Shown here: piece by piece, positions 36,791 to 47,211 of the stretch
Layout: every line of letters begins with the position of its first letter
How positions within the stretch are numbered: the stretch's first letter is position 1
From: Thermosulfuriphilus ammonigenes
GTDB taxonomy: Bacteria > Desulfobacterota > Thermodesulfobacteria > Thermodesulfobacteriales > ST65
NCBI RefSeq assembly: GCF_011207455.1
Contig: NZ_CP048877.1
Location: 1,418,576 to 1,482,575 of the forward strand
Direction: 5' to 3'
Length of the DNA: 64,000 nucleotides
Translations under genes and position numbers: made by a program
The notes under the pieces: generated by a model
Told to the model about the DNA's origin: nothing
The model's input: the letters and a program-made list of their open reading frames with translations, nothing else
Database searches by the model: none

Positions 36791-37339
36791 TTGCTATCTA
36801 ATGCCTTGATGACCTTAGTGATCCCAAAGATTTTCCGAAAATTTCGGGAAAAGACGGGCTTTAGCCTTATTGAGGCTTTGGTGGTGATGGCTATGGTGGC
36901 CATTGTTGCTACTCTGGCCATCCCTAGGCTCAGCAGTCTAAGGGATGATCTGGCCCTTAAAGGGGCCACTAAAACTTTGGCTGCCGATCTTCAGTACGCC
37001 CGGGTAGCCTCACTGCGTCGGCAGTCAAGGGTTGTCGTCAGCCTAACCAATAATGCCAGTAGCTATCAGATCTTTGTTGATGCCAATGATAACGCCTCTC
37101 TTGATGCCGGAGAGACAGTCTTAAAGAGTGTTGCCCTTCCCCAGGCGGTGACCCTTTCCTCCGTTGCCTTTTTCGGCTGTGCTACAGGGCCACAGTTTGT
37201 GAGAGGGCAGCCATCCTGTCTTGCCGGTGGAGGAAATGGGAGCCTAAGGCTTGTCTCGGGGCGAACTAATTCTTTTTACAAGATAAAACTTAGTCGCTCT
37301 GGTCGGGTGGTTGTCTGTGACAAAAACAGTGATTGCTAA
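36791..37339 (+). CDS. GspH/FimT-type minor pseudopilin
   Basis: Minor type IV pilin of 182 residues. The prepilin peptidase site is KTG|FSLIEALVV with Glu at +5, followed by the hydrophobic helix VMAMVAIVATLAIPRL and a GspH-like body (ADLQYARVASLRRQSRVVVS). It has two pairs of cysteines toward the C-terminus (GCATGPQFVRGQPSC and CDKNSDC). The TTG at 36791 has AGGGA seven bases upstream; ATG 36809 lacks such a site. First gene of the minor-pilin operon; overlaps the next gene by 29 bases. Confidence 0.88.
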   Translation: MLSNALMTLVIPKIFRKFREKTGFSLIEALVVMAMVAIVATLAIPRLSSLRDDLALKGATKTLAADLQYARVASLRRQSRVVVSLTNNASSYQIFVDANDNASLDAGETVLKSVALPQAVTLSSVAFFGCATGPQFVRGQPSCLAGGGNGSLRLVSGRTNSFYKIKLSRSGRVVVCDKNSDC

Positions 37340-37955
37340 AACTCAAGGAGTTACTCTGGTAGAGTTGTTGGTCTCCCTGGCCATGATTTCTCTTGTCGGG
37401 TTGGGGATATATGCCGCCCTCAATGGTCAGTTAAAGGCTTCCGCGGTGGTCCATGATACGGCCCTTGTGCAGCAGGATATCCGGGCCAGTCTTAACACCC
37501 TGGTCAAGGAGATCCGGATGACCGGTTATGATCCTTCCGGTTCGGCAGTCTGTGGGAACTGGATAGATACGGCCGACGCCAACAACCTTCAGATTGAAAT
37601 GGATCTAAACGGCGATGGGGACTGCGATGATACCAATGAACGGATAACCTTTGCCTATAGTTCCGCCAATCGGCGCTTGTCGCGAAACACCGATCCCTTG
37701 ATAGGGGGAGAGGGCAGTCAGGTAGATTGCTTTCAATTTACTTACGTTCTTGCCGACGGAACAGAGACCTCTACCCCCTCTGCGGCCCAGCTTTCGTCTA
37801 TTCGAGTCGTCAAGATCCAGATGGTTGTCCGTTCGGCCGAGGCTGATCCTCGGTATACCAACAGCGAAACCTATCCCATTTGTGGTCCCTTTAACGATAA
37901 TTACCGTCGCCGCTATCTGGAGGTGGCCATAGCCCCTCGGAACCTTGGCCTATGA
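37311..37955 (+). CDS. pilW: PilW-like minor pilin
   Basis: Minor pilin of 214 residues. Cleavage site KTQG|VTLVELLVSLAM with Glu at +5, long N-terminal helix, then IRASLNTLVKEIRMTGYDPSG, the sequence typical of PilW. A loop LNGDGDCDD may bind calcium. The start is not certain: TTG 37311, or GTG 37317 or 37329; all lie inside the previous gene. Overlaps pilV by four bases (ATGA). Confidence 0.86.
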   Translation: MSVTKTVIAKTQGVTLVELLVSLAMISLVGLGIYAALNGQLKASAVVHDTALVQQDIRASLNTLVKEIRMTGYDPSGSAVCGNWIDTADANNLQIEMDLNGDGDCDDTNERITFAYSSANRRLSRNTDPLIGGEGSQVDCFQFTYVLADGTETSTPSAAQLSSIRVVKIQMVVRSAEADPRYTNSETYPICGPFNDNYRRRYLEVAIAPRNLGL

Positions 37956-38347
37956 TGGGAACTAAAAAGACTAAAAAGATAGACAAGGCTGGTTTTTCTC
38001 TCCTGGAGGTACTTATTGCCATCTCTGTCCTCTCTGTGGGTATTCTGGCCTTGGCCAGTATGAATATTGCCTCCCTGCGGGGGACCAAAATTTCCAAGGA
38101 GCTTACCTACGCTACCCTTGAAGGTCAGGCCCTTTTGGAGGAGCATGTTTTTAGTCGAGACTTTGAAGATCTGGACACCGTTTGTAACAATATCCCCTCC
38201 ACTCTCAATTATGCGGGTGTATCGTTTTCTGTTCAGTGTCGTCTAATCACCCACTCAGACGAGTTAAAGCAGGTAATCATCACCCTTTTTTGGGGCAGTA
38301 AGCGGCTTCAATACACTATCTTTCGGGCCCGGGGGGATACCTTATGA
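37952..38347 (+). CDS. pilV: PilV-like minor pilin
   Basis: Minor pilin of 131 residues. Cleavage site DKAG|FSLLEVLIAISVLSVGIL is textbook for PilV, followed by ALASMNIASLRGT. A short C-terminal domain has a Cys pair (TVCNN, SVQCRL). Starts in an ATGA overlap with pilW and ends in an ATGA overlap with the next gene. It probably helps prime pilus assembly together with PilW, PilX and PilY1. Confidence 0.88.
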   Translation: MMGTKKTKKIDKAGFSLLEVLIAISVLSVGILALASMNIASLRGTKISKELTYATLEGQALLEEHVFSRDFEDLDTVCNNIPSTLNYAGVSFSVQCRLITHSDELKQVIITLFWGSKRLQYTIFRARGDTL

Positions 38348-38751
38348 TCCAGAATCAGCAAGGGAATACCCTGGTCCTGGCCCTGGTGGTTCTTCTTATT
38401 CTTACCGCTGTAGGTATGTGGGCCAGTCGAGATGCCCTGGTGGAAACCTGGACGGCTGTAGCCAATCGAGACTACTATCAAGACTTTTATGCTGCAGAGA
38501 CGGGTATCCGTTTGGGGTTGAACAAGGTGTCTGAAGGGCTCACAGGCACCTGGAGCCTTACCCTTCCCTCTTCTGAAAACCAAATCACTGTAAATTACTC
38601 GGTTACTTTTCAGGCCTGCTACCAGGGGTCTCAATCCTATAAATGTACCAATCCGTCATCAGCCTGTGAGGAATACCTGATCCGTAGCTGGACCACCAGC
38701 GGGTATACCATAGAGGCTTACGGCCAGCGGGCCGTCTCTGCCTGTCCTTAA
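38344..38751 (+). CDS. pilX: PilX-like minor pilin
   Basis: 135 residues. N-terminus NQQG|NTLVLALVVLLILTAVG is PilX-like: no Glu at +5, as common in PilX, and DFYAAETGIRLGLNKV is the family's YAAE(T) stretch. The C-terminal half carries four Cys (CYQ, KCTN, ACEE, ACP). Position between pilV and pilY1 supports the call. Confidence 0.85.
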   Translation: MIQNQQGNTLVLALVVLLILTAVGMWASRDALVETWTAVANRDYYQDFYAAETGIRLGLNKVSEGLTGTWSLTLPSSENQITVNYSVTFQACYQGSQSYKCTNPSSACEEYLIRSWTTSGYTIEAYGQRAVSACP

Positions 38752-38770: not shown

Positions 38771-41700
38771 ATGAAAGCCTTTACAAAGGCCTTATTGCTG
38801 TTTGTTCTGGGCTTGGCCCTGGGATATCCTCGGCCATCCTTGGCTAACGTCTGTGGGGAGATCCCCATATACTTAGGGACTTATTCCATCCCTGAGATAC
38901 TCTTCGTGGTGGATCTTTCGGGGAGTATGATCTTAGGGCCTCGACCAGACTGGACACCTTCGTATGATCCTACCACTACCTACTCTGGCTTTTATACTGA
39001 CCAGGGGCTTAACAACAAGGTCTTTAATCGTCAATATGTCATTGATGGTAGCCAGCGTTATCATCTAGTTTATCAGTGCTTTGATGACCCAAGCCACATT
39101 ATTACCAACACCTATGACAGTAGCAATCCAGAGAACGCCGAGTGTCCAGTTAATTTATGTACTGGAGCCTTTCAGGATCCTTCGGGTAATGTAACCTCTA
39201 TCCTCAACCAATATGGAATCGCTGACTGGACTTGGCACAGTAGCAATCTTGATCCGCCAACGGTTTTAGTTAACGGTTCAGAGATCTACATCGCCTATCA
39301 CTTTTGTCCGGGAAATTGCGCTTGGTTTTTTACTGGCGGTGGTATTGCCCAGTTTTGTGACAATCAAGGGATTCCCGCCGGCTATGAATCAGACACCCTA
39401 GTGCTGGGGAATTATCTCAACATGAGTCGAATAGAGGTAGCTACCAGGGTCATCCGACAACTGGTAGCTGATTCTTCACTTTCTACCGGGGTAGCCTTTT
39501 TTAAACAGGATTTTCCCACCAACCAGAACTTCACTCGCGTTTATGTAGGCTGTGAGCCCTATAGTGAGGCCCACTTTGCAGAGATAGATAATGCCTTAAA
39601 CAGTATTGCCCACGCCAAGGTTTCCGCTACAGCCAATGTCTTCCGGATTATGGTTGGTGGGGGGACCCCTTTTTCTCCCTCCATTGTGGCGGCTAATGAC
39701 TACTTTGCCGGCAATCTGGCCGATGAATCAGGGAATTATTATTCTCCTCAGCCCTGTGGTAAAAAATTCGCCATCTTCATCACCGATGGTCAGGGTAATA
39801 TTGGTTCAAGTGAGGCCAATGTTGAGACTCGTACCCGGGATCTGGTTCAGAGCGGCGTTACCGCTATTGCTGTCGGCTTTAACCTTCCTCCCAATCAGGA
39901 TGCTCAACTGAGGGTTATGGCCCGGGTAGCCAATGAAGAAGCCGATGGCATAAATACCTTTGCTCTTCATCGAGACAACGACAATGACGGGGTGCCAGAT
40001 CCTTTCATCGCTCGCAACCCGGACGAGCTGGCCGACATTCTGCGCTCCATTATCTATGAGATAAAACAGACCGTTTTTCGGACCGGAAGCGGGACAGCCA
40101 CCAGAACCAACTATGGCAATATCCAGATCTATACAGGTTTTGACGTCTCTGACTGGACTGGTGAGGTCAAAACCGGCCCGTATCGTTATAACTGTGCCAA
40201 TTGTCATTCGCTTTCCAATGCTCGGGCCTTAGCCAGGTGGCATCACTTTAATGATGTTGATGGAGATGGTCATCTTGATGCCCAAGATGAAGACGTAAAT
40301 GGCAACAATCAATTGGATCCCGGAGAGGATATCGACGGGGATGGCAATCTTGATGTGGCAGAGCAAATTGATGAAACCGCCCTGCGTAACTTCCTTCTGG
40401 ACCAAAATGCTGTCTCCGCTGCCATGGGAAGTGAGGCCCTAGTTGGCTACGATGCCAGTAAAATCGACGATATTGTGGCTATGATTATGGGCAATCTGGA
40501 TGCCAGCCTTTGGTATAGTTCCGATACTGGCTGGACAACCAATACCACCCTTGCTTGTGGTTCTTCCCGTAACATTTATACCAAAGATGCCAGCGGCAAA
40601 TTTGCCTTTACGGTGGCCAATCTTACCCGGATAAACGCTATTATCTCACCTGATACCTATGATCTTACGGAAGATGAAGTCCGCTTTATCCGGGGAGAAC
40701 TTGCCTGTGGTAGTAGTAGCAGCAATTTTCGAACCCGAGAACGCCCGCTGGGAGATATTATCAGCAGTCAACCCCGGGTGGAGGACGGTCTTATCTGGGT
40801 GGGAGCTAACGATGGCATGCTTCATGCCTTTGATGTCAACTCTGGTGAGGAGGTCTTTGCCTATATTCCCTCAGCGGTGCTCTCTCGCTACAAGGAGCTG
40901 GGCTACTTCTCGCCCACTTATTGTCATGATTACATGCTAGATGGCACCCCAGTAATAGAGGATCTGGGTAGCCAGAAAATACTTGTCTGTGGTCTGGGAC
41001 GAGGTGGTAACCAATTCTTTGCCTTGGACATAACCACCCCCACGGCCGATGGTGTCCAGCCCCTGTGGGAGTTTTCGGATCCTAATCTGGGAGAGACCTG
41101 GAATCAGGCAGCCATTGCCCAACTTGAAGACGATTCCTGGGTGGCCTTTCTCCCTTCTGGATATGCCCAGGTCGACGCTGATTGGCCTACCAAACAGGCT
41201 TGGCTTTTCGCTGTGGGAGCCACCAATGGGGCCAGCAAGTGGAGTCTTCAACTGGGTAGTGAGGGGGGGAACATGCTTACTACTCCTGTAGCGGTTGATT
41301 CTGATTTTAATGACCGCGTTGACCGCCTCTATTTAGGGGATATGATGGGCCGGCTCTGGCGAGTGGACAATCTTTCCGGGGCGCCTACCTCACAGGTAAT
41401 CCTCAACCTTGGCTCCGGTCATCCTATAACCGCCCATCCGGCCTATGGAGTGGCTGATGGCAAGATCTGGGTCTATTTTGGCACCGGAAAATACTGGGAT
41501 TGGACAGACGGTCAAGATGGTACCGTCCAATATATGGTTGGTGTCCGGGATGAGAATACTGGTCAACTCAGCCTGACAGACCTTAATGTCAATCAGATCA
41601 ACATTGTTGGAGACTACGCCGTTATCACCGGGGGGTGTGATCCTACCAGAAAGGGCTGGGCTATTGAACTCCCTCGGACGGGGCCAGCCGGTGGGGCCGA

Positions 41701-42073
41701 AAGGGTTCTTACCCCTCCTTTAGTCCTTGGGGGATATGTCTTCTTTGTGACCTTTATCCCTACCGGGGATCAATGTAGCGGAAGCGGTGAGGCCTGGCTT
41801 TTTGTGGTTCGTTATGATTCAGGCTGTGTGACCCCCTACGACAGTCCGGTCTTTGACGTCAATAATGATGGGACCATCGATGAAAATGATAAGGTAACCT
41901 TTGGAGGCACTCCAACCTATCCAGCAGGAATAAAGCTGGGTGATGGAGTGCCGGTGGGTGAACTCAGTTCTCTGGGAGACCTTATTATTCAGGCCACTAC
42001 TGAGGGGACCCAGCCGGTGGTTACGGCCATTAAGGCCTGGTTTAAGAAGGGCTCCTGGCGAGATCTTGATTAA
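38771..42073 (+). CDS. pilY1: PilY1-type pilus tip adhesin with VWA domain, CxxCH motif and Ca-binding loops
   Basis: A 1100-residue exported protein. Signal peptide at residues 1-25; von Willebrand A domain with the MIDAS DLSGS (Asp48, Ser50, Ser52), ending near 430. The PilC/PilY1 beta-propeller occupies about 660-1040 (GDIISSQPRVEDGLIWVGAN, GMLHAFDVNSGEE). Between them is CANCH at residues 475-479, then three DxDxDG-like loops (about 492-535: DVDGDGHLD, DVNGNNQLD, DIDGDGNLD). A fourth, DVNNDGTIDENDK, is near the end. AAGGAGGTG precedes the ATG. It caps type IV pili and mediates adhesion and calcium-controlled retraction in known homologues. Confidence 0.93.
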   Translation: MKAFTKALLLFVLGLALGYPRPSLANVCGEIPIYLGTYSIPEILFVVDLSGSMILGPRPDWTPSYDPTTTYSGFYTDQGLNNKVFNRQYVIDGSQRYHLVYQCFDDPSHIITNTYDSSNPENAECPVNLCTGAFQDPSGNVTSILNQYGIADWTWHSSNLDPPTVLVNGSEIYIAYHFCPGNCAWFFTGGGIAQFCDNQGIPAGYESDTLVLGNYLNMSRIEVATRVIRQLVADSSLSTGVAFFKQDFPTNQNFTRVYVGCEPYSEAHFAEIDNALNSIAHAKVSATANVFRIMVGGGTPFSPSIVAANDYFAGNLADESGNYYSPQPCGKKFAIFITDGQGNIGSSEANVETRTRDLVQSGVTAIAVGFNLPPNQDAQLRVMARVANEEADGINTFALHRDNDNDGVPDPFIARNPDELADILRSIIYEIKQTVFRTGSGTATRTNYGNIQIYTGFDVSDWTGEVKTGPYRYNCANCHSLSNARALARWHHFNDVDGDGHLDAQDEDVNGNNQLDPGEDIDGDGNLDVAEQIDETALRNFLLDQNAVSAAMGSEALVGYDASKIDDIVAMIMGNLDASLWYSSDTGWTTNTTLACGSSRNIYTKDASGKFAFTVANLTRINAIISPDTYDLTEDEVRFIRGELACGSSSSNFRTRERPLGDIISSQPRVEDGLIWVGANDGMLHAFDVNSGEEVFAYIPSAVLSRYKELGYFSPTYCHDYMLDGTPVIEDLGSQKILVCGLGRGGNQFFALDITTPTADGVQPLWEFSDPNLGETWNQAAIAQLEDDSWVAFLPSGYAQVDADWPTKQAWLFAVGATNGASKWSLQLGSEGGNMLTTPVAVDSDFNDRVDRLYLGDMMGRLWRVDNLSGAPTSQVILNLGSGHPITAHPAYGVADGKIWVYFGTGKYWDWTDGQDGTVQYMVGVRDENTGQLSLTDLNVNQINIVGDYAVITGGCDPTRKGWAIELPRTGPAGGAERVLTPPLVLGGYVFFVTFIPTGDQCSGSGEAWLFVVRYDSGCVTPYDSPVFDVNNDGTIDENDKVTFGGTPTYPAGIKLGDGVPVGELSSLGDLIIQATTEGTQPVVTAIKAWFKKGSWRDLD

Positions 42074-42091: not shown

Positions 42092-42532
42092 ATGAATTAT
42101 AAAATCTGGCTGATAACTTTGATGTTTTATTCTCTGGTTTCTCCTGTTGGATTGGTCCAAGGCGTGCAAGTGCAAGATGGGGATAGGCCCATCAAGATTC
42201 TTTTCGGCCGGGTTCCTAAGGCGGACAAACGTCAGGTTTACGCTCTGGTGGAGAAGCAAATTCTTAAGGGCGGACACCTTAAAGGGGTAGTGCTAAAGAT
42301 CGGGGCCCAAACGCTGACCATCCCTGTAAGCCCTAAGGTTGAGCTTTTCAGGGTCTCAGGGGTGGGCGAGACGGCTCAGATGAAGGCAGCTAGTTGGTCA
42401 GATCTCACCCCCGGGACCCTGCTTCAGGTTTACTATCTTCCTGAGAAGGGGGGGCGGATTGAATCCATCTGTATTATCGGGCACCACGAGCAGCGGGGAA
42501 AGACCGGTCCATGGCAAAGGCATCTACGCTAG
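42092..42532 (+). CDS. Secreted protein of unknown function, end of the pilin operon
   Basis: A 146-residue protein with a signal peptide (LITLMFYSLVSPVGLVQG) and a small beta-rich domain (GGHLKGVVLKIGAQTLTIPV, SWSDLTPGTLLQVYYLPE). I do not recognise the family. AAGGAGG precedes the ATG, 18 bases after pilY1, so it is likely co-expressed with the pilins. It ends with a nine-base overlap on the convergent PP-loop-like gene. Confidence 0.7.
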   Translation: MNYKIWLITLMFYSLVSPVGLVQGVQVQDGDRPIKILFGRVPKADKRQVYALVEKQILKGGHLKGVVLKIGAQTLTIPVSPKVELFRVSGVGETAQMKAASWSDLTPGTLLQVYYLPEKGGRIESICIIGHHEQRGKTGPWQRHLR

Positions 42533-43315
42533 CCCGCTGAGATGCTCGGCTAGCCATTTTTGGGCCTCAGGGATCAGGAAATTCTGAAGAATTTCCTCTA
42601 TCCCCTCCTCAGACACTGGCCGTTTGGCCTCATCAAGGTAATTTTGACTCAAGACACAAGACATCTGTTCGGCCCCTTCGCCCCACGGACGGCCCAGAAT
42701 TCGTTCAATTTCGGCTCCAGAATCCACTTTCCGTAAGGGCAAAACAAGACGAAGACCAACTTCCTTAAGGAGGCTCTCATAAGCATCCAGGGCTACAGGA
42801 AGCTGATTGAGTTTGATCCGTCCATCGTGGGTTTCTCTCTCACCAGCAATGATAAGACGAGCTCCTATCAATCTGGCCAAGGGAACCCTCACAATGTGAA
42901 GATAGAGATGACAGCCAAGGCAGGGAGTGTAGAAGCCAAATTTTTTGATCAGCTGACCAAGGGGGCGACCACACAGACGCCACCACAGTCGCGGATCGCC
43001 CAAAAAGATTGGTTTAAAGACCTTAATATCTTTGCGCTTGAGGTTTTTTAGGCTTAGGGCCTTTTCATAAGGAATGTTCCAATCACCAAATTCTGTCCCC
43101 GTATAGGCGATGGTGGGTAATATGGCTCGAATGTCCTCCTCTTCTGTAGCCTTTAAGACAGCTGCCAAGCTATCTCGACCAGCAATCTCAGCAACAGCCA
43201 CTCCTTTCAGCTTCCTTAATTCTTTAAGGGTGGTTGGCGAAATAAGCCAGGAGGGGAAATTGGTTACTAAGGGCCTTCTCTCACTCAAAATGTCTCGAAG
43301 CCTTTCGGAGATCAT
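42524..43315 (-). CDS. PP-loop-like (adenine nucleotide alpha-hydrolase-like) protein, function unknown
   Basis: A 263-residue cytoplasmic protein. EIAGRDSLAAVLKA at residues 43-56 resembles a degenerate PP-loop (SGGxDS), followed by a motif-rich stretch: TPCLGCHLYLHIV (CxxC-H), ERETHDGRIKLNQLP and LPLRKVDSGAEIERILGRP. The Cys and His pattern could bind metal or accept sulfur. The start overlaps the apgM stop by four bases (ATGA), so the two are co-translated. I cannot name a substrate; tRNA thiolation or a similar adenylating role would fit the fold only. Confidence 0.6.
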   Translation of the reverse strand: MISERLRDILSERRPLVTNFPSWLISPTTLKELRKLKGVAVAEIAGRDSLAAVLKATEEEDIRAILPTIAYTGTEFGDWNIPYEKALSLKNLKRKDIKVFKPIFLGDPRLWWRLCGRPLGQLIKKFGFYTPCLGCHLYLHIVRVPLARLIGARLIIAGERETHDGRIKLNQLPVALDAYESLLKEVGLRLVLPLRKVDSGAEIERILGRPWGEGAEQMSCVLSQNYLDEAKRPVSEEGIEEILQNFLIPEAQKWLAEHLSGLA

Positions 43316-45450: not shown

Positions 45451-47211
45451 TCAGATTTGTTTGGCCAGGGCTATGAGCCAGAAAGTGTGCCCAAGGGGAT
45501 CTAACTGAATAAGCGGAAGATCGGCCAAAAGTGAATTGCGGGCTGGGTCTTCAAAATTGGGAAGGCTACTCAGGGCCAAAGTGGCGGCGGCAGGAGGTGA
45601 AGGAACCGCTCCATCGTAATCTTCGTGGACAAGGAGGGGAAGGTCTTCGCCGTCAGAAAGATAAAAGAGCCCTTCTTTTTGAAAGCGGGAGATCATCTCC
45701 TGAGCTAGAGCATCCTTTATGGTATTTGGGCGACCTGTGGTCGCTTCGGCCTCTAAAAGGGCTAGGAGAACCCAGGCATAGTCCTCAAGAAGTCCGGAGC
45801 AGGTGATTTTACCTCCGGCCCGGCAATGCCAGAGTGGTTGGCCGTCTTTTAGGAGTTGATGCATGATCCTTTCAGCCTGCTGGAGATAGGTTTTTTTTCT
45901 CAAAATTCTGGCGGCTCGGTAGAGACTGCGGGCCATCATGGCGTTCCAGGAGGCGATAATCTTCTCGTCCCTTTCAGGAGGCACTCTTTGCCTGCGGGCC
46001 TCTAAAAGGCGCCTTTTGGCCTCATCTAAGGCCTGGACCTGGGCGCGATTCAAGCCCAGCTCCCTTATAAGTTGGTGAAGAGGGGCTCGGAGAAAGATGA
46101 TATTACGTCCGGTTCGTCGGCCTTTTACCGGATCAATAAAGTTGCCTTCGGTCTTGAGGTTAAAAACCTGGCTGAAGAGATCCCCTAGCTCCCGGCCGAG
46201 GATGTCGCGAACCTCTTCCCGGCTCCAAAGATAATACCAGCCCTCCCGCCCCTGACTTTCGGCATCTTGAGAGCTGGCCAGCAGGCCATTAGGTAATAAG
46301 AGGTTTTCCTCAACGTAGCGGAATATCTCCTGGGCTACCTGAGCGTAGAAGGGGCGCCCGGTGAGTTCGTAGGCTTCAAGATAGGCCATAGAAATCAGGG
46401 CCTGATCATAGAGCATTTTTTCAAAGTGAGGCACGTGCCAGGCGGCATCTAGACTGTAGCGGTGAAAGCCAAAGCCGAGATGATCATAAATCCCTCCTAA
46501 CCGGAGATTAAGGAGGGTGTTCTCCAACATCTCAAGGGCTTCAGGACGGGCCAGTCGACGATAGGCTAAGGCCATAAAATAGAGGGTCGAGGGCATGGCG
46601 AACTTAGGAGTTCCTTTAAGCCCACCATGTCGCCAATCAAAGGCCTCTTTGAGAGCCTCAAGGGCCTGAAGGAAGATCCCCTTGTTGGGAAGGTTGGAGG
46701 CCTTTTTCTGGAGAGGAGCAAGGGCCCTGGCAATCTGTCTGGCTGAAGCCTCAAGGCGATTCCTGTCTCTCTCCCAGGCAGTACTTACTCCCTGAAGAAT
46801 TTCCAGAAAACCAGGTCGTTGGCGGCTTCCAGATCGGGGGAAGTAAGTTCCCGCCAGAAAAGGCCACCCTTCAGGGGTGGCGAAGACGGAAAGAGGCCAG
46901 CCGCCATTTCCCGTAAGGAGAAGGCAGGCCCTCATGTAGAGGGCATCTACATCCGGTCTCTCTTCGCGATCTACCTTGATAGGAACGAACTTTTCATTAA
47001 GGAAGGTAGCTATCTCCTGGTCCCGGAAGGACTCCCGCTGCATTACATGACACCAGTGGCAGGCGGCATAGCCGATAGAAATAAAAACCGGCCGTTTGAG
47101 TTCCTTAGCCCGATTGAAGGCCTCCTTTCCCCAGGGCCACCACCGCACAGGATCATCTAGGTGTCGTTGCAAATAAAGGCTGAGGGCCTTCTGGCGAAAA
47201 AGATCAGACAT
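45451..47211 (-). CDS. DUF255 thioredoxin-fold protein (YyaL/spermatogenesis-associated 20 family)
   Basis: 586 residues. N-terminal thioredoxin-like domain (1-160), with WGKEAFNRAKELKRPVFISI, the characteristic YAACHWCHVMQRESF (CxxC), and VDREERPDVDALYMRAC; then an alpha/alpha-toroid of N-acylglucosamine epimerase type (GIYDHLGFGFHRYSLD, HFEKMLYDQALI, ASQDAESQGREGWYYLW). Cellular role in bacteria is not established. It lacks a clear signal peptide, so it acts in the cytoplasm. It overlaps cvpA by eight bases. Confidence 0.9.
   Translation of the reverse strand: MSDLFRQKALSLYLQRHLDDPVRWWPWGKEAFNRAKELKRPVFISIGYAACHWCHVMQRESFRDQEIATFLNEKFVPIKVDREERPDVDALYMRACLLLTGNGGWPLSVFATPEGWPFLAGTYFPRSGSRQRPGFLEILQGVSTAWERDRNRLEASARQIARALAPLQKKASNLPNKGIFLQALEALKEAFDWRHGGLKGTPKFAMPSTLYFMALAYRRLARPEALEMLENTLLNLRLGGIYDHLGFGFHRYSLDAAWHVPHFEKMLYDQALISMAYLEAYELTGRPFYAQVAQEIFRYVEENLLLPNGLLASSQDAESQGREGWYYLWSREEVRDILGRELGDLFSQVFNLKTEGNFIDPVKGRRTGRNIIFLRAPLHQLIRELGLNRAQVQALDEAKRRLLEARRQRVPPERDEKIIASWNAMMARSLYRAARILRKKTYLQQAERIMHQLLKDGQPLWHCRAGGKITCSGLLEDYAWVLLALLEAEATTGRPNTIKDALAQEMISRFQKEGLFYLSDGEDLPLLVHEDYDGAVPSPPAAATLALSSLPNFEDPARNSLLADLPLIQLDPLGHTFWLIALAKQI

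Follow-up and report, generated by a model that had tools for sequence, protein, structure and literature searches.

The PilY1 pilus-tip protein of Thermosulfuriphilus ammonigenes contains, ahead of its beta-propeller, an insert that is specific to a small PilY1 subfamily and that begins with a conserved CxxCH motif of the type used for covalent attachment of haem c. Judged from alignments and a structure prediction, this insert combines the CxxCH motif with tandem EF-hand-type calcium loops, an invariant methionine (Met552) and a predicted C-terminal helix. We tentatively interpret it as an insert with one haem and several calcium loops whose role is to stabilise the tip protein, much like the Myxococcus protein TfcP but in fused form, and we give this reading a probability of roughly 45%.

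The protein itself is a genuine PilY1 encoded within a minor-pilin operon. In the window, which is the whole 64,000-nucleotide stretch of DNA that was analysed, pilY1 spans positions 38771-42073 of the plus strand and encodes 1100 residues. The best match in the PDB is PilY1 of Pseudomonas aeruginosa (3hx6, E=1e-31), and the PF05567 propeller was recognised by Pfam at 80 bits (cut-off 28.1), with its core at residues 674-870 (40790-41380, plus strand). Part of a VWA domain lies at residues 305-388 (39683-39934, plus strand), where PF00092 scored 19.9 bits and fell under the cut-off of 23.8. By eye, the N-terminus (MKAFTKALLLFVLGLALGYPRPSLA-N) resembles a signal peptide, predicted to cover residues 1-26 (MKAFTKALLLFVLGLALGYPRPSLAN; 38771-38848, plus strand), and near the other end a PilY1-type calcium site, DVNNDGTID (residues 1029-1037; 41855-41881, plus strand), fits the published definition Dx(D/N)xDGxxD (PMC13190605). 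Directly upstream on the same strand are four minor-pilin genes, encoding proteins of the FimT/GspH type (36791-37339; PF12019 at 44.6 bits, and PF07963), the PilW type (37311-37955; PF07963, and PF16074 at 25.2 bits, just missing the cut-off of 26), a PilV-like type (37952-38347; PF07963 at 28.1 bits) and PilX (38344-38751; PF14341 at 36.8 bits). A search of the genome, a single contig of 2,287,345 bases, recovered one copy of pilY1. The gene is directly followed by an ORF for an exported-looking protein of 146 residues (42092-42532, plus strand) that matches no Pfam family and does not clearly resemble the small ORF that follows pilY1 in L017, one of the related loci described below.

The motif is encoded at positions 40193-40207 of the plus strand (tgt gcc aat tgt cat), which reads CANCH at residues 475-479. 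The DNA and the Pfam domain matches confirm exactly where the initial annotation had put it, since it falls between the sub-threshold VWA match and the PF05567 match. CxxCH also occurs in three other ORFs of at least 150 residues in the window, none of which is a cytochrome by profile, so the motif by itself is no proof of haem. One of the three encodes a 4Fe-4S protein. Another, on the minus strand (45451-47211), encodes a DUF255/Thioredox_DsbH protein with CHWCH at 47047-47061, a cautionary case of a CxxCH outside a cytochrome. The last encodes a 263-residue protein without a Pfam family that has CLGCH at 42908-42922; it is encoded on the opposite strand, shortly beyond the pilus operon (42524-43315, minus strand). 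It is thus the conservation of CANCH, rather than its presence, that carries weight.

Conservation was assessed in the five members of the subfamily that were found, including the window protein, which come from three families in two classes. Three of them (in genomes G001, G009 and G011) are homologous over the whole protein, belong to the same order but a different family, and are 44-56% identical by segment; the fifth is in G076, a genome from another class of the same phylum. As a subfamily, the members are about 45-57% identical to the window protein. Three members were also recovered as L017, L018 and L019, from metagenome-assembled genomes of Thermodesulfobacteriales/Thermodesulfobacteriaceae. 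CA[ND]CH stands at one and the same position in each of the five, so that the motif is kept in every close relative found, in a sample of only five sequences, at least three of them from metagenome-assembled genomes. Across the four full-length members, identity is 80% in the motif and 56% in the calcium loops, compared with ~30% in most of the protein.

Beyond these members, CxxCH was absent from the 38 other PilY1-like ORFs examined, which were taken from the phylum and from the genome contigs that were searched. A profile of the insert, run against 395 genomes of the phylum, detected no further carrier apart from a partial match in G366, which covers the acidic-repeat part and leaves out the motif part, and a search of the class of G076 returned no additional members. 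The contig search retrieved no relative with the window protein as a single query; with the alignment as the query it returned the three members named above together with other PilY1s and unrelated acidic-repeat proteins, and outside those three members no PilY1 ORF among the matches contained a CxxCH. Within the family labelled f2, a PilY1 of the subfamily type is present in some genomes, and no PilY1 match at all was obtained in close relatives of the same genus; this patchy distribution in the family and the order suggests loss or transfer.

Alignment with 16 PilY1 loci that have no CxxCH delimits the insert to residues ~467-581 (40169-40513, plus strand), and it was found in five genomes only. 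It sits between a 'WxG' strand (DWTGE in the window protein) and an 'RNIyT' strand, and in the motif-less PilY1s a short stretch stands in its place. Its length ranges over ~85-150 residues among members, with ~85-110 extra residues in the window protein, and the CxxCH is at its start. Three EF-hand-type calcium loops follow in the window protein, all on the plus strand and assigned by pattern: DVDGDGHLDAQD (residues 495-506; 40253-40288), which also has weak EF-hand matches, DVNGNNQLDPGE (residues 508-519; 40292-40327) and DIDGDGNLDVAE (residues 520-531; 40328-40363). The same pattern occurs six times in the G076 protein and three times in each remaining member, where additional, less canonical loops are visible in the alignment. 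The longer inserts of other members are accounted for by the varying number of these DxDGDGxLDxxE loops. A helix predicted at residues 562-572 (40454-40486, plus strand; AlphaFold2 model m08b6c2c5a5cb, helix 96-106) would close the insert.

Apart from His479 and Met552, no His or Met of the insert is invariant. Met552 (40424-40426, plus strand), the sole invariant Met, lies 73 residues past His479 and is a candidate distal haem ligand; the spacing between the two differs among members (73, 98 and 122). Of the Met and His residues that might serve as distal ligand, as the initial annotation had suggested looking for, Met552 stays a candidate by its conservation; the nearby His491 and His492, like His501, are not conserved in all members and were rejected.

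Cysteines are numerous in the window protein, as had been remarked earlier: there are 18, alongside 15 His. Outside the insert, four invariant Cys are found up to residue 329 and six from residue 596 on, and the insert has no third Cys. With the other invariant Cys even in number, the two motif Cys are not required as their disulfide partners, and pairing of the motif with other conserved Cys was set aside as unneeded. The disulfide alternative put forward in the initial annotation would then take the form of a local CxxC bond within the motif. Elsewhere, in the propeller, a Cys-His pair (within YCH) at residues 718-719 (40922-40927) is likewise invariant across all members.

The host has the means of attaching haem. 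As the initial annotation had advised, the genome was searched for cytochrome c maturation genes, and two sets of ResB/CcsA, constituting maturation System II, are present. Among the four other host genomes, ResB was detected in three (the search in G009 gave no match) and homologues of PF01578 maturation proteins in all four. Purified bacterial CcsBA recognises CXXCH peptides and modifies them; both thiols and the His are required, and helix 1 and the cytochrome fold are dispensable (PMC8112865). With CXXCH as the only requirement of CcsBA, PilY1 is a likely System II substrate if it is exported with its CANCH accessible. The genome is also rich in multihaem c-type cytochromes. Attachment is therefore plausible, given the conserved motif, the invariant Met, the System II sets and the multihaem cytochromes, and we lean towards haem being bound covalently to PilY1 at all. 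A His/Met-ligated haem c in the insert is favoured indirectly, from residue conservation.

The multihaem cytochromes include a cluster at about 2,003,650-2,024,430 of the genome (L123 and L124), whose products have 5, 8, 5, 16, 26, 5, 7, 12 and 12 CxxCH motifs and show matches to cytochrome c3/c7 and MtrC/MtrF-like profiles. Other exported-looking ORFs are present there, including one of 652 residues that has no Pfam match and may be a barrel. The cluster looks like a conduit for extracellular electron transfer.

Searches for a cytochrome c fold were negative throughout. Pfam gave no cytochrome c match in any member, with only weak EF-hand-type and unrelated matches; the best NCBIfam match was SoxA, in four members and at E=0.027 or worse; and a search of PDB sequences reached NapB at E=3.7, with no cytochrome c match of weight. 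Homology to class I cytochromes c was not supported by two profile comparisons, in which the class I sequences were taken from the same order: one aligned the motif alone (8.9% probability), and in the other a C-terminal stretch was matched out of register (37.6%). AlphaFold2 models built with three sequences are of low confidence, the mean pLDDT being 44.7 over residues 421-643 and 61.8 over residues 467-581, and neither model led Foldseek to a cytochrome. Helices are modelled after the CxxCH, before Met552 (two) and after Met552 (one), an order that, in so weak a model, may resemble that near the end of a class I cytochrome c. The suggestion of possible haem attachment at CANCH is partly supported, by conservation, maturation genes and the candidate ligand Met552; no cytochrome c fold or profile was recognised.

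These negative searches speak for the strongest alternative, which we regard as a serious one although somewhat short of an even chance. It holds that no haem is bound: Cys475 would be linked to Cys478 in a local CxxC disulfide, or the two would join His479 in a small structural metal site, in either case anchoring the beginning of the calcium-binding insert, and His479 would be conserved for some other reason. PilY1s are exported, Cys-rich proteins, the other CxxCH ORFs of the window encode non-cytochromes, and the clearest similarity of the insert is to EF-hand-type repeats, all of which agree with such a role. Against it, all five members keep His479, which a disulfide would not need, and the host possesses a System II whose substrate requirement is CXXCH.

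The idea of a pilus-tip cytochrome, raised when the motif was first noticed, divides in a similar manner: the haem site is plausible, and the electron-transfer sense of the term found no direct evidence. In its working form the tip haem would perform redox chemistry, for example in contact with elemental sulfur or minerals, or serve redox surface sensing. The multihaem cluster of the host, with its 26-, 16- and 12-CxxCH proteins and MtrC/MtrF-like match, would suit this role, and a part for pili in the use of S0 by sulfur disproportionators has been proposed (PMC8780430). Yet, over the micrometres of a pilus, one haem could pass electrons on only if the filament itself were conductive, and no sign of that was found here; the genes next to pilY1 include no evident redox partner; within the order, only a few genomes have the insert; and electron transfer is not thought to be a function of TfcP, the PilY1-linked cytochrome already known (PMC8833165). 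We therefore consider this role unlikely. The same low standing applies to its fullest version, a PilY1 subfamily of thermophilic sulfur-cycle bacteria in which a covalent, redox-active tip haem coupled to the calcium loops would let the tip sense solid sulfur, minerals or partner cells, or exchange electrons with them. That CANCH is a chance or neutral motif without a role is very improbable, for although the motif is short and three other window ORFs contain a CxxCH, the composition of this PilY1 predicts only 0.004 occurrences, 0.38% of shuffled sequences contain one, and the motif has been retained at the same position in five proteins as divergent as those described above.

Under the reading we prefer, that of a stabilising haem and calcium insert, unfolded PilY1 would meet the periplasm-facing CcsBA synthase of System II during export. 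CcsBA would attach haem at Cys475 and Cys478. His479 would be the proximal iron ligand and Met552, the sole invariant Met or His of the insert besides His479, the likeliest distal one. Haem, together with calcium in three or more loops, would then form the folding core of an acidic and otherwise flexible insert, and the stabilised PilY1 could proceed to assemble the priming or tip complex with the four minor pilins. By analogy, helping this assembly would be the job that a separate cytochrome, TfcP, does in Myxococcus.

Several known systems share part of this arrangement. With P. aeruginosa PilY1 (3hx6) and PilC (PF05567), the window protein has in common a beta-propeller, the C-terminal Dx(D/N)xDGxxD site, a minor-pilin operon and, as far as its sub-threshold match goes, a VWA domain ahead of the propeller; in the ordinary PilY1s examined, by contrast, both the CxxCH and a comparable insert are absent from the region before the propeller. 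Tandem EF-hand-type or thrombospondin-3-like acidic repeats of bacterial surface proteins have DxDGDGxLDxxE loops in variable number, as the insert does, but on their own these repeats have no CxxCH, and the G366 protein shares this acidic-repeat part alone. Class I monohaem cytochromes c likewise have a CxxCH, a conserved Met and a C-terminal helix within ~100 residues. The insert differs from them in giving no profile or fold match, in having tandem calcium loops between motif and Met, and in that a helix follows rather than precedes the CxxCH in the low-confidence model.

The closest parallel comes from Myxococcus xanthus, in which TfcP, a periplasmic cytochrome c in its own right with His/Cys ligation, is encoded in the minor-pilin operon, helps PilY1.1 to bind calcium and stabilises it at low calcium (PMC8833165). 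In the literature searched, subscription-only papers aside, the TfcP paper is the only one on a PilY1-linked cytochrome to contain both 'PilY1' and 'CXXCH', and no earlier report of a haem-site PilY1 was found. In a survey that covers well-studied and myxobacterial PilY1s, cytochrome c comes up for TfcP only, and neither 'heme' nor 'haem' is used (PMC13190605). If haem is attached, the present protein would be a PilY1 with a haem of its own, outside the myxobacteria, where a separate TfcP serves PilY1. This would suggest that haem-assisted, calcium-dependent maturation of the pilus tip arose more than once, or it would point to a redox-active tip. Both systems link a CxxCH to PilY1, to calcium and to a minor-pilin operon. 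TfcP, though, stands on its own as a soluble protein of the periplasm, has a recognised cytochrome c fold with Cys as the distal ligand, and does not form part of the pilus. In the present case PilY1 itself contains the CxxCH, and the candidate distal ligand is Met. Between the minor pilins and pilY1 there is no other CxxCH ORF of at least 150 residues that could be a separate TfcP-like gene, the nearest being that at 42524-43315 on the minus strand, and the insert offers no other Cys as a distal ligand. Since neither a separate gene nor a Cys ligand was found, the relation to TfcP under our preferred account would be one of working alike rather than of membership.
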